64,000 nucleotides of DNA from Candidatus Poribacteria bacterium (GTDB lineage Bacteria > Poribacteria > WGA-4E > PCPOR2b), in the NCBI GenBank assembly GCA_022822785.1, contig JAJEAL010000117.1:1-64000 (forward strand), written 5' to 3'. The notes beneath the pieces are model-generated. The model was given only the letters and a program-made list of their open reading frames with translations, did no database searches and was not told where the DNA came from. Shown here one piece after another: positions 43,949 to 48,368 of the stretch. The stretch's first letter is position 1. Each line of letters begins with the position of its first letter. The position numbers were made by a program, and so were the translations under genes.

Positions 43949-44704
43949 ATGGCCACTAAATCAAGCATTGAATGGACCGAAGCCACTTGGAATCCGGTGA
44001 CAGGCTGCACAAAGATCAGTCCCGGCTGTAAACATTGTTATGCGGAAAGAATGTCCTTTCGTCTGAAAGCAATGGGGCAACGGAACTACGTAAACGGATT
44101 CGATCTCACACTCCATGAGCGGATGTTAGAAAAACCCCTTTCATGGAAAAAGCCGCAGTTGATTTTTGTCAATTCAATGAGTGACCTATTTCATGATGAG
44201 GTTCCTATAGACTTTATCCTGAAAGTCTTTGGTGTGATGCGGTGTGCTTCTTGGCATCAGTTCCAGGTTCTGACAAAGCGTTCTCAGCGGTTGCTGGAGT
44301 TGAACGATCAAATTGATTGGCCAAATAATGTATGGATGGGCGTCAGCGTTGAAAACCAAGACTACACCTTCCGCATCGATCATCTGAGAAAAACGGATGC
44401 CGTAACCAAATTCCTCTCTCTTGAACCGTTGCTCGGTCCACTTTCAGGTTTGAATTTGGGGCAAATTGATTGGGTGATTGTTGGCGGCGAGTCGGGACCA
44501 GGGGCGAGGCCGATGTACGAAGAATGGGTCATCCAGATTCGGGATCAATGCAATGCGGCGGAGGTTCCGCTTTTTGTCAAACAGATGGGTGAGTCTTGGG
44601 CAAAGATTAAGAAAGTGAAAAGCAAAAAAGGCGGCAATATGGAGGAATGGCCAAAAAATTTACAGATACGAGATTATCCCTCATCAATTGTTGCTGCAGG
44701 ATAG
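43949..44704 (+). CDS. DUF5131 (phage Gp37/Gp68-like) family protein
   Basis: 251 aa; GAAGGAG upstream. Family features: [20 protein letters not shown], then [11 protein letters not shown] (CxxxxxxCxxC, a radical-SAM-like cluster site), [56 protein letters not shown], and LFVKQMG near the end. Homologues occur in phages and bacteria; the reaction is not established, though an iron-sulfur/radical mechanism is likely. It has its own good promoter. Confidence 0.9.
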
Positions 44705-45790: not shown

Positions 45791-46015
45791 GGAATCCGAT
45801 GAATATACCAAATAAAATGAGAGAAACTGCTTAAGCTTCAGTGTACAGGCGGCATTGGAGCTCATTGTGAACCACCGCCCGGCTAGGAAACAGTGGATTC
45901 TTATGCGGCAGTGGTTAGGTTGAACGACATAATATCAAGGTTGCAGGATTAGAATCGTTAGGTTTCGTACTTCAATGTGTAGACCGAACTGTGAACATTT
46001 AAGGAGATGAATGTT
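45791..46015. other. Spacer before the predicted nuclease
   Basis: 225 bases. No open frame with a ribosome site, no strong promoter and no terminator were recognised; composition shifts to higher A content toward the nuclease gene. Confidence 0.4.
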
Positions 46016-47965
46016 ATGAAAACAGATCGTCGTCCCAGCGATTCAGAATTATTCGCTTCGTATGCACAAAACGATTTGGGTAAATGGCAAAAACTCAAAG
46101 GACTTCAAGTGAAGCATAAAACTTTGGGAAACGGAATTATCACAGGAGTTGATCGGGCGTTTAATAACCAGATCGATGTCAGAGTCCAGTTTCATAGTGA
46201 TAGTTATTGGACAAGATCGGATCCGTTCAAGGATGAGTTCGTTTCCAATCTTACTGAGCTTGTCCTTACCGATCGGTTGAAACTAAAAATACTCAAAGGG
46301 TGGAAGACAACTCATCAAAAATGGGAACGCACGAAAAAGGATTGGAAAGAAAAACAGCAGAGAGAATGGGAAAGGATACTGGAACAAAAGTTAGAAAGAC
46401 AAAAGGAGTGGGAACGCCCGAAAAAGGATTGGAAGGAAAGACAGCAGAGGAAAAAGAAAAAGATACAGGAACAAGAGTTAGAAAAACAGAAAGAGCTTGA
46501 ATTAAGAAAACAAAAACGAGAATCCGAAAAACAAAGACAACTTGAGTTACGAAGACGGGAAGAAGAAGAAAAAAGGATTCATCGTCGCCCTTTGGAACCA
46601 TTTATTCAAGCAGCTAAACAAGTCTTTAGCACACAAATGAAAGTGACAGTTGACAGCCCAATTTTAAATGCACAGGATATACAACTTGCACTGGAATGGT
46701 ACCGAGGACTAAAGAAACCGGTAATCCTACAACAATCCGGAGCAAATAGTCTCAACAAGGATCTTCTAATAGAAATAGCAAACGATGATGACGAGTTAGA
46801 GCGTGTTCTCTCAGCACGTGCTGCCGAGAAATCTGTCATGGAGTTTTATCAACGTAATGGATACTATGTCGAGGATGTATCGATACATGGAGTTACATCT
46901 GAGAGTCCTGACTGGAAACAGTACGACCTGAAAATTAACGGATCTTCTTTTGACGTGAAAAACTCGCGCTGTTCAGAACAGAACCCTAATAGTTATGTCG
47001 AGCATTGTGTTCCTAGTTTTAAGCGGGATCGAAGCAATCGAGACGTAACTATAGCTGGAGTCCTTTCACCCAACCTCCCAACATCTAAAATACTGAATCC
47101 AGAAAGTCTAATGAACCAAAACACACCAATTCTATTTCTTGGGCTTACAAGTATCAAGGAGTTGACTGAAATAAGAAATGAGTTTGAAACCCGTGATCTG
47201 CTCGAAATTAATCTGCAACGTCGAAATAGAAGTGGATACTTCCTCCCGCCATGGATGTTCAATTATCCAAGATTTCTGTATGGACAACGAGATACTGAAC
47301 TTAACAAGATTGTTGAACAGACCGTTCCTGAATACGGTCTATGGAAAGAGTTCAATCTGAATCCAACTCCCTTATGCACAGCAGCAGGAATAGATCTAGG
47401 ACAACTTTGGAGTTCGGAGATTTTAATAGACTGGGAACGGTCATTTTTATCAACAGTTGTGAGTCGCCCCAAGAAGCATAGGCTATCTTTACCATATTTG
47501 TTTTTGAGCATGCTAAAGCACTTCCTTCAAATGGTGTCTGCGAACGAGGGCATCAGTTATCGCCCCACTGGATATATGAAGTTGATTTATGATCCCAAGA
47601 TAGATCCAAGTTATAATATGCCTTTGGGCATCTATGACCCGCTGTGTACGATTTATAACTTAATTACTTCGTTGGATAAGTTATGGAAGGCTGAACCTGA
47701 GTTAATACGAAGTTTTAAGATGTTTAGACTTTGGGGATTGAATATCTTGAGGGGACGCAGAGAGGAAAATGAACGGTGGAAAACCCTTATTGCATACTGT
47801 GGAGGTCCAAAGTGTGGCAAAGATCCGTTGGTTCTGGGTGATTGTGAGCACTGCCGTGAGTGCGGTATGCTAATCTGCTCTGATTGCAAATTCTGTAGTA
47901 AAAACTGTTCTGAGTACGATTTGAGGAGGCATGAATTTGAAAACTCACAGTCAGGGCAATCATAA
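46016..47965 (+). CDS. Predicted coiled-coil PD-(D/E)XK nuclease
   Basis: 649 aa from ATG 46016, which is 9 bases after AAGGAG; the ATG at 46007 touches the site. Order: residues about 17-70 resemble the SH3/Tudor-like end of UvrD-type helicases (GLQVKHKTLGNGIITGV); 95-195 a charged coiled coil with a duplicated 29-residue unit; about 255-345 a nuclease-like core with E271, D304 and D313-V-K315 (YDLKINGSSFDVKN), matching E..D-(x8)-D-x-K; about 597-633 nine Cys (CGGPKCGK, CEHCRECGMLICSDCKFCSKNC), probably zinc sites. This combination is unfamiliar to me. A Lys/Glu-rich coiled coil and higher A content suggest foreign origin. A role in defence is an inference; no partner gene is next to it except an orphan mazE. 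Confidence 0.7.
   Translation: MKTDRRPSDSELFASYAQNDLGKWQKLKGLQVKHKTLGNGIITGVDRAFNNQIDVRVQFHSDSYWTRSDPFKDEFVSNLTELVLTDRLKLKILKGWKTTHQKWERTKKDWKEKQQREWERILEQKLERQKEWERPKKDWKERQQRKKKKIQEQELEKQKELELRKQKRESEKQRQLELRRREEEEKRIHRRPLEPFIQAAKQVFSTQMKVTVDSPILNAQDIQLALEWYRGLKKPVILQQSGANSLNKDLLIEIANDDDELERVLSARAAEKSVMEFYQRNGYYVEDVSIHGVTSESPDWKQYDLKINGSSFDVKNSRCSEQNPNSYVEHCVPSFKRDRSNRDVTIAGVLSPNLPTSKILNPESLMNQNTPILFLGLTSIKELTEIRNEFETRDLLEINLQRRNRSGYFLPPWMFNYPRFLYGQRDTELNKIVEQTVPEYGLWKEFNLNPTPLCTAAGIDLGQLWSSEILIDWERSFLSTVVSRPKKHRLSLPYLFLSMLKHFLQMVSANEGISYRPTGYMKLIYDPKIDPSYNMPLGIYDPLCTIYNLITSLDKLWKAEPELIRSFKMFRLWGLNILRGRREENERWKTLIAYCGGPKCGKDPLVLGDCEHCRECGMLICSDCKFCSKNCSEYDLRRHEFENSQSGQS
46322..46495 (+). 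repeat. Tandem 87-base repeat in the nuclease gene
   Basis: Two direct copies (46322-46408 and 46409-46495) encode WERTKKDWKEKQQREWERI and WERPKKDWKERQQRKKKKI in parallel positions of a coiled coil. The unit is 29 codons. This is a recent internal duplication that changes the length of the rod. Confidence 0.8.
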
Positions 47966-48088: not shown

Positions 48089-48119
48089 AAGTCAAATTAT
48101 TTTTTTGAAGGGTTTGACT

Positions 48120-48368
48120 ATGTTGGGTAAAATTCAGAGATGGGGAAACAGCCAGGGGCTTCGGTTTACGGAGGCACTTCTCCAAGAAGCTCAGATGAAC
48201 GTGGGTGATGAAGTAAACGTTTCAGTCGAGAAAGTGCGGATTATCGTTGAATCCGTGACCAAAGTGCGAGGCAAGTATGATTTGAAGGATCTGGTATCGA
48301 AGATACCCCAAGAGTGTCAAGTTGAAGAACTGGACTGGGGTGAGTCTGCTGGAAAGGAAGAGTGGTAA
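48120..48368 (+). CDS. MazE-like antitoxin (orphan)
   Basis: 82 aa from ATG 48120 (GAAGGG upstream). The N-terminal MLGKIQRWGNSQGLRF and the following GDEVNVSVEKVRIIVE are the AbrB/MazE DNA-binding swapped-hairpin fold; the acidic end (ELDWGESAGKEE) is where MazE binds its toxin. The usual mazF follows only as a wrecked 5' piece, so the antitoxin is left alone, possibly still repressing its own promoter. Confidence 0.8.
   Translation: MLGKIQRWGNSQGLRFTEALLQEAQMNVGDEVNVSVEKVRIIVESVTKVRGKYDLKDLVSKIPQECQVEELDWGESAGKEEW

Follow-up and report, generated by a model that had tools for sequence, protein, structure and literature searches.

The gene considered here lies in a stretch of 64,000 nucleotides (the window) of the Candidatus Poribacteria genome G000, from a sponge-associated bacterium. 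It encodes a protein that matches no family in Pfam, NCBIfam or PADLOC and no sequence in the PDB. What does this protein do, and does it act on behalf of its host? The first-pass annotation had read the gene as a predicted, laterally moved and possibly defence-related nuclease with a domain order of no described family. The last of these claims holds against the four collections named, in which the relatives of the protein are likewise without matching families; with the models of PADLOC-DB 2.0.0 (of 2023), the window protein and its relatives gave no match with an E-value better than 0.03. As judged from these searches, we are dealing with an unnamed family of putative nucleases.

The reading frame and its surroundings

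The open reading frame is real. It contains no internal stop codon, and its start at 46016 is well placed, because a Shine-Dalgarno-like AAGGAG is located at 46001-46006. An alternative in-frame ATG at 46007 overlaps this site. The GC content of the gene is 0.407 versus 0.500 in the remainder of the window. The features of the gene and of the region downstream are summarized in Table 1.

Table 1. Features of the predicted nuclease gene and its 3' flank (window coordinates)
Feature	Position	Strand	Basis
Nuclease gene, 649 aa	46016-47965	+	Open frame with AAGGAG; belongs to 23 intact family proteins
SH3/tudor-like N-terminal region, approximately residues 9-95	46040-46300	+	Aligns with L024, L017 and L021; weak hhalign match to UvrD tudor
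Predicted long charged helix/coiled coil, residues 88-204	46277-46627	+	AlphaFold2 (AF2); partly common to L013
Tandem 87-nt (29-aa) repeats, two copies	46322-46495	+	Copies 84% identical
Predicted PD-(D/E)XK nuclease domain, residues 209-400	46640-47215	+	AF2 domain model; Foldseek with non-significant E-values
E271, putative active-site helix acid	46826-46828	+	23/23, inside A-R-x-A-E
D304, putative first active-site aspartate	46925-46927	+	23/23; immediately precedes strand 305-307
D-x-K motif D313-V-K315-N316	46952-46963	+	Strand 310-319; D313, K315 and N316 in 23/23
Predicted middle domain, residues 401-590, fold unassigned	47216-47785	+	LPPW, HFLxM and IYDPL motifs kept in the family
Cys-rich module at the C-terminus (C595-C631) with two putative Zn sites	47798-47908	+	Cys conservation
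Interspersed hairpin repeat of about 115 nt, 3' of the stop codon	47974-48089	.	Copies in G002, G003 and G004
MazE/AbrB-like small ORF without adjoining toxin	48105-48368	+	Pfam MazE_antitoxin E 0.11, under the cut-off

What had been taken for a flanking mobile element turned out to be the interspersed, hairpin-forming repeat behind the stop codon (z-score of the DNA fold: -4.7), present in dozens of copies in the sister genomes G002, G003 and G004; it is no transposon equipped with a transposase. Its palindromic centre of about 28 nt has a far wider distribution in the family. Of the MazE/AbrB-like ORF, further sequence copies are found elsewhere in G000, G002 and G003.

Conserved core and distribution of the family

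The part shared by the members of the family comprises the C-terminal 430 residues or so (approximately 209-632), that is the nuclease domain, the middle domain and the cysteine module. Relatives are present in 6 of 85 genomes of the Poribacteria phylum (in one of them as a remnant only), in 2 of the 64 genomes of the phylum that contains the Latescibacteria, in 9 of 386 cyanobacterial genomes and in a single one of 395 genomes of Desulfobacterota. Plasmid-borne relatives occur in Synechocystis, Variovorax, Roseomonas, Sinorhizobium and Microvirga. A phage collection and IMG/VR, which were searched as well, yielded no relative.

A first alignment of the family was too diverse for a pattern scan, and conservation was assessed in a set of 23 intact homologues. 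Invariant in all of them are L224, W228, A267, R268, A270, E271, D287, W300, D304, D313, K315, N316, V349, G376, W413, P542, L553, F570, C595, G596, C600, C613, L619, C621, C624 and C627, and position 314 is always V or I. Within the core of 424 residues, just four of the 53 aspartates and glutamates (E271, D287, D304 and D313) and one of the 26 lysines (K315) are invariant. The chance of picking E271, D304, D313 and K315 at random is p ~7e-6, and exactly these residues had been named, in PD-(D/E)XK order, from the window sequence alone. Homologues that lack them and occur in nothing but housekeeping settings would have spoken against the nuclease; instead, the residues are present in every intact homologue, and several of these homologues reside in defence islands.

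Predicted fold of the nuclease domain and the cysteine module

In the AlphaFold2 models, which were calculated with 12-13 family sequences, helix 259-280 carries E271, a strand (305-307) follows D304, and the next strand (310-319) carries both D313 and K315. These elements are followed by the strands 345-351 and 372-379 and by a helix, which is the order known from PD-(D/E)XK enzymes. The signature D-x(n)-(D/E)-x-K of these enzymes is represented by D304, D313 and K315 in 23/23 proteins, and the helix acid ahead of the core strands by E271, equally in 23/23. According to the order of secondary structure elements, both the whole-protein model and the model of the domain alone (pLDDT 75.8, pTM 0.78) possess the expected alpha-beta core of helix, three strands, helix and strand around D304, D313 and K315, on which the early nuclease assignment had been made to depend. 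With the domain model as query, ranks 1 to 18 of the Foldseek search were all restriction enzymes, with a best E-value of 0.15 and none significant, and the top matches are mostly type II enzymes of the PD-(D/E)XK fold (NhoI, Eco15I, EcoRV, PvuII and HincII). The full-length model, including the long helix, returned noise only. As a model-based assignment, the PD-(D/E)XK fold of the nuclease domain is well supported, because topology, residues and rank pattern agree with each other, with no single match being significant. It is very likely that the window gene encodes the predicted DNA-cutting enzyme. Kinship with NOV_C/DUF3883 was considered and rejected (hhalign E 0.22, not significant).

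The C-terminal domain with nine cysteines was also recognized correctly (positions 595, 600, 610, 613, 616, 621, 624, 627 and 631). C595, C600, C613, C621, C624 and C627 are found in 23/23 homologues, C631 in 22/23 and C616 in 19/23, so that all except C610 are conserved. Paired cysteines, as expected of the ligands in a zinc ribbon or treble clef, are therefore kept by 19-23 of the 23 proteins, and the eight conserved ones are enough for two putative zinc sites. Among known zinc-finger families, no match to this module was obtained beyond FYVE with an E-value of 0.18.

Exchange of the N-terminus

The first-pass annotation had compared the N-terminal domain with the end of UvrD helicases; this resemblance keeps the register but is statistically weak. 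The hhalign comparisons with UvrD tudor domains are in register, with E-values of 0.0021 and 0.00088 and weak probabilities of 14% and 23%. The Pfam family PcrA_UvrD_tudor (PF21196) appears in the Latescibacteria homologue L024 alone, with an E-value of 0.29 and 11.5 bits versus a cut-off of 23.9 bits; the window protein gives no match to it, and no solved structure was matched in the profile searches with the N-terminus, which is modelled by AF2 with a pLDDT below 50. L024, L017 and L021 have this tudor/SH3-like region in common with the window protein. We regard the UvrD-like identity as suggestive, and only that. The tandem repeat of 29 amino acids inside the coil was confirmed; its copies at 46322-46408 and 46409-46495 lie within the predicted helix.

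The order of SH3-like domain, coil, nuclease and zinc module, as put forward by the first-pass annotation, describes the window protein but is not the architecture of the family, because nuclease, middle domain and zinc module alone are conserved and the N-terminus is exchanged. This is true even for the orthologue L013 at the same locus in G003, where tetratricopeptide repeats (TPRs) take the place of the tudor-like region. Cyanobacterial members have cold-shock-like N-termini (under the Pfam cut-off) and helical repeats. One of them, from cyanobacterium G506 (L095:7906-10767), has a C-terminal SSB domain (Pfam E 9e-20), which points to DNA. The N-terminus of the G002 member (L015:9485-9900) looks GIY-YIG-like by eye (GLYQIY ... 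LLYVGKA), without a Pfam match.

In G003, the N-terminus is a second, complete RpoA, which continues in frame into the nuclease core (L016:8630-11257; G003:C122, JAJDUM010000024.1) to give a protein of 876 amino acids. The fused RpoA carries all three Pfam RpoA domains and is 94% identical at the protein level to the ordinary RpoA encoded elsewhere in this genome (G003:C90). Since omega between the two copies is approximately 0.08 (dN 0.030, dS 0.385), the fused RpoA is kept under purifying selection. Its gene is situated outside the ribosomal-protein operon, next to an IS4-like transposase gene (named by eye). The fusion is known from one metagenome-assembled genome, and our literature searches returned nothing relevant; as far as these and the library searches went, it is undescribed. 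The locus that corresponds to the fusion site in G003 contains in G001 a decayed nuclease copy, of which the last 36 codons are left (L111:11012-11119; G001:C1:3149011-3149118).

Lateral transfer and comparison of loci

That the gene has been moved laterally, as first suspected from its A-rich codon use and its flank, is strongly supported. The GC content of the nuclease gene is below that of its flanks in 23/23 loci, and the dS of the core between the Poribacteria copy (G002, L015) and the Latescibacteria copy (L024) amounts to 0.44-0.69, whereas rpoA differs between two species of the window's own genus (G000 and G002) by a dS of 0.90. In the tree, L024 nests among the copies from Poribacteria. 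Omega values of 0.17-0.61 within the family indicate fast evolution.

The window gene and its G003 orthologue (72% identical) share identical flanking neighbours and occupy one intergenic site. Without the nuclease, 34-95 nt separate the flanking genes in G002 and G005, while in G004 the MazE-like ORF is present at the locus and the nuclease is absent. Neither terminal repeats nor a target duplication nor an insertion into conserved genes was seen at the locus of the window gene and its orthologue. A DUF5131 gene at 43949-44704 of the window is missing at L013, where approximately 1.7 kb of other sequence are found.

Defence genes in the neighbourhood

Outside Poribacteria and Latescibacteria, 7 of the 17 loci are located beside or near defence genes and 10 are without such neighbours, a proportion to be read against a background rate of defence neighbours that was measured roughly. 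In L014, a type III methyltransferase lies directly upstream on the same strand, accompanied by a UvrD helicase two genes on and by PifA. The cyanobacterium G695 (L090:1150-14978) possesses a complete Hma system in the order HmaA, HicAB-like genes, nuclease, HmaB and, further on, HmaC; genes similar to VapC and to nucleotidyltransferases also lie between the Hma genes. Hma remnants surround the nuclease on a Synechocystis plasmid (L008), with VapC nearby. In other loci, the nuclease is found upstream of Gabija GajA/GajB (L011) or near DISARM-like DrmA with Dcm and DUF262 (L010), PbeA and PbeC of Pbe (L095) or a phosphorothioation-associated methyltransferase (L096).

No clear defence neighbour recognized by PADLOC was detected at the Poribacteria and Latescibacteria loci examined, and HmaA, HmaB and HmaC are absent near the window gene. 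A scan of 61 proteins from the window and from other neighbourhoods of these two groups gave only six families, mostly generic or candidate ones, with one member each. The suspected relation to defence is thus supported by several homologues in defence islands of other phyla, and a defence role in the Poribacteria host would have to be deduced from these distant relatives, because clear defence neighbours are missing there. The assumption that the gene acts alone agrees with the situation in Poribacteria, but not with that of relatives adjoining methyltransferases, Hma or Gabija.

Possible functions

We consider it probable that the product of the window gene is a DNA endonuclease which depends on a metal and belongs to an unnamed, laterally spreading PD-(D/E)XK family; the most likely role of this enzyme would be that of a restriction-like effector in the defence against invading DNA. 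The conserved domain with E271, D304 and D313-x-K315 would cut DNA with the help of a metal, and the exchangeable N-terminal module, here the tudor/SH3-like region and the long coil, might select the target or the complex and may also drive oligomerisation. In Poribacteria and Latescibacteria, the N-terminus could be an address, either tudor-like or RpoA, by which a restriction-like nuclease rides on RNA polymerase and cuts transcribed DNA, for instance that of phages or plasmids. Since tudor domains of PcrA/UvrD bind RNA polymerase (PMC5397179, PMC8318588) and the RpoA fusion exists, this tethering is a testable idea, albeit unproven and in our opinion unlikely. A nuclease of transcription-coupled or general DNA repair might be recruited to RNA polymerase in the same way, and the selection on the fused RpoA, the tudor-like N-terminus with its polymerase-binding fold in PcrA/UvrD (PMC5397179), the UvrD helicase downstream in L014 and the SSB fusion in L095 are all consistent with it. 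However, the patchy distribution, the transfer between phyla and the high omega values are unlike housekeeping repair, and most of the N-termini are not known binders of RNA polymerase, which makes such a function rather improbable.

The wide lateral transfer, the low GC content and the exchange of the upstream part, with the core standing behind rpoA, TPR or cold-shock-like sequences, might also be expected of a selfish, homing-like module whose cutting aids its own spread and not defence. To this we assign a low probability, since the window gene and the G003 orthologue occupy the same intergenic site, at which the marks of insertion looked for were not seen, one copy has decayed in place, and phage and IMG/VR sequences yielded no match. 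It is still somewhat less probable that the protein is an RNase or a growth-stopping toxin, which a small neighbour (the MazE-like ORF, VapB or HicB, for example) might keep in check. The MazE-like ORF downstream, the HicAB-like and VapC-like genes near L090, VapC near L008 and the cold-shock-like domains of cyanobacterial members would suit a toxin, but the MazE-like gene of G004 does without the nuclease, other loci have no conserved small partner, and in the fold search it is DNA restriction enzymes that stand out. If the non-significant Foldseek E-values meant that the likeness in fold is misleading, the protein could lack catalytic activity and bind DNA or serve as a scaffold; this is highly improbable, because the full catalytic set together with D287 is the only invariant constellation of acids and lysine in the core.

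The restriction-like endonuclease, which we favour, is of interest because its family is new to Pfam, NCBIfam and PADLOC, has members within or next to several defence systems, Hma among them, and offers an invariant active site that lends itself to mutagenesis. Moreover, the in-frame fusion with RpoA makes a delivery of the nuclease by RNA polymerase directly testable.

Comparison with known systems

The N-terminus of the window protein shares with the PcrA/UvrD Tudor domain the pattern G-x-x-V/I-x-H-x-x-x-G-x-G-x-I/V in register. Unlike this Tudor domain, which is C-terminal, the similar region is N-terminal here, and the likeness is statistically weak. NOV_C/DUF3883 shows a weak in-register likeness around the helix glutamate and ED-x-S, but has EVKG where the window nuclease has DVKN.

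In regard to type III restriction-modification, the nuclease gene of L014 comes immediately after that of a type III methyltransferase, and both are encoded on one strand. In contrast to type III systems, no ResIII helicase-nuclease subunit was recognized beside it, and the helicase two genes on is of the UvrD type. The relation to Hma and other DUF499-centred, BREX-related systems is one of position: the nuclease is placed between HmaA and HmaB in L090 and among remnants in L008, and in the parts of the Hma literature available to us no dedicated nuclease is named (PMC8565338, PMC12839542). The nuclease itself is not a homolog of HmaA, HmaB or HmaC, and most loci, including that of the window, are without Hma.

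From the type II PD-(D/E)XK enzymes, the family differs by the lack of any sequence similarity, by the fusion to a middle domain and a putative two-zinc module, by the offset of 8-13 residues between D304 and D313 and by being mostly without a dedicated cognate methyltransferase. What it has in common with EcoRV, HincII, PvuII, NhoI and the N-terminal domain of Eco15I is the order of helix acid, D and (D/E)xK.
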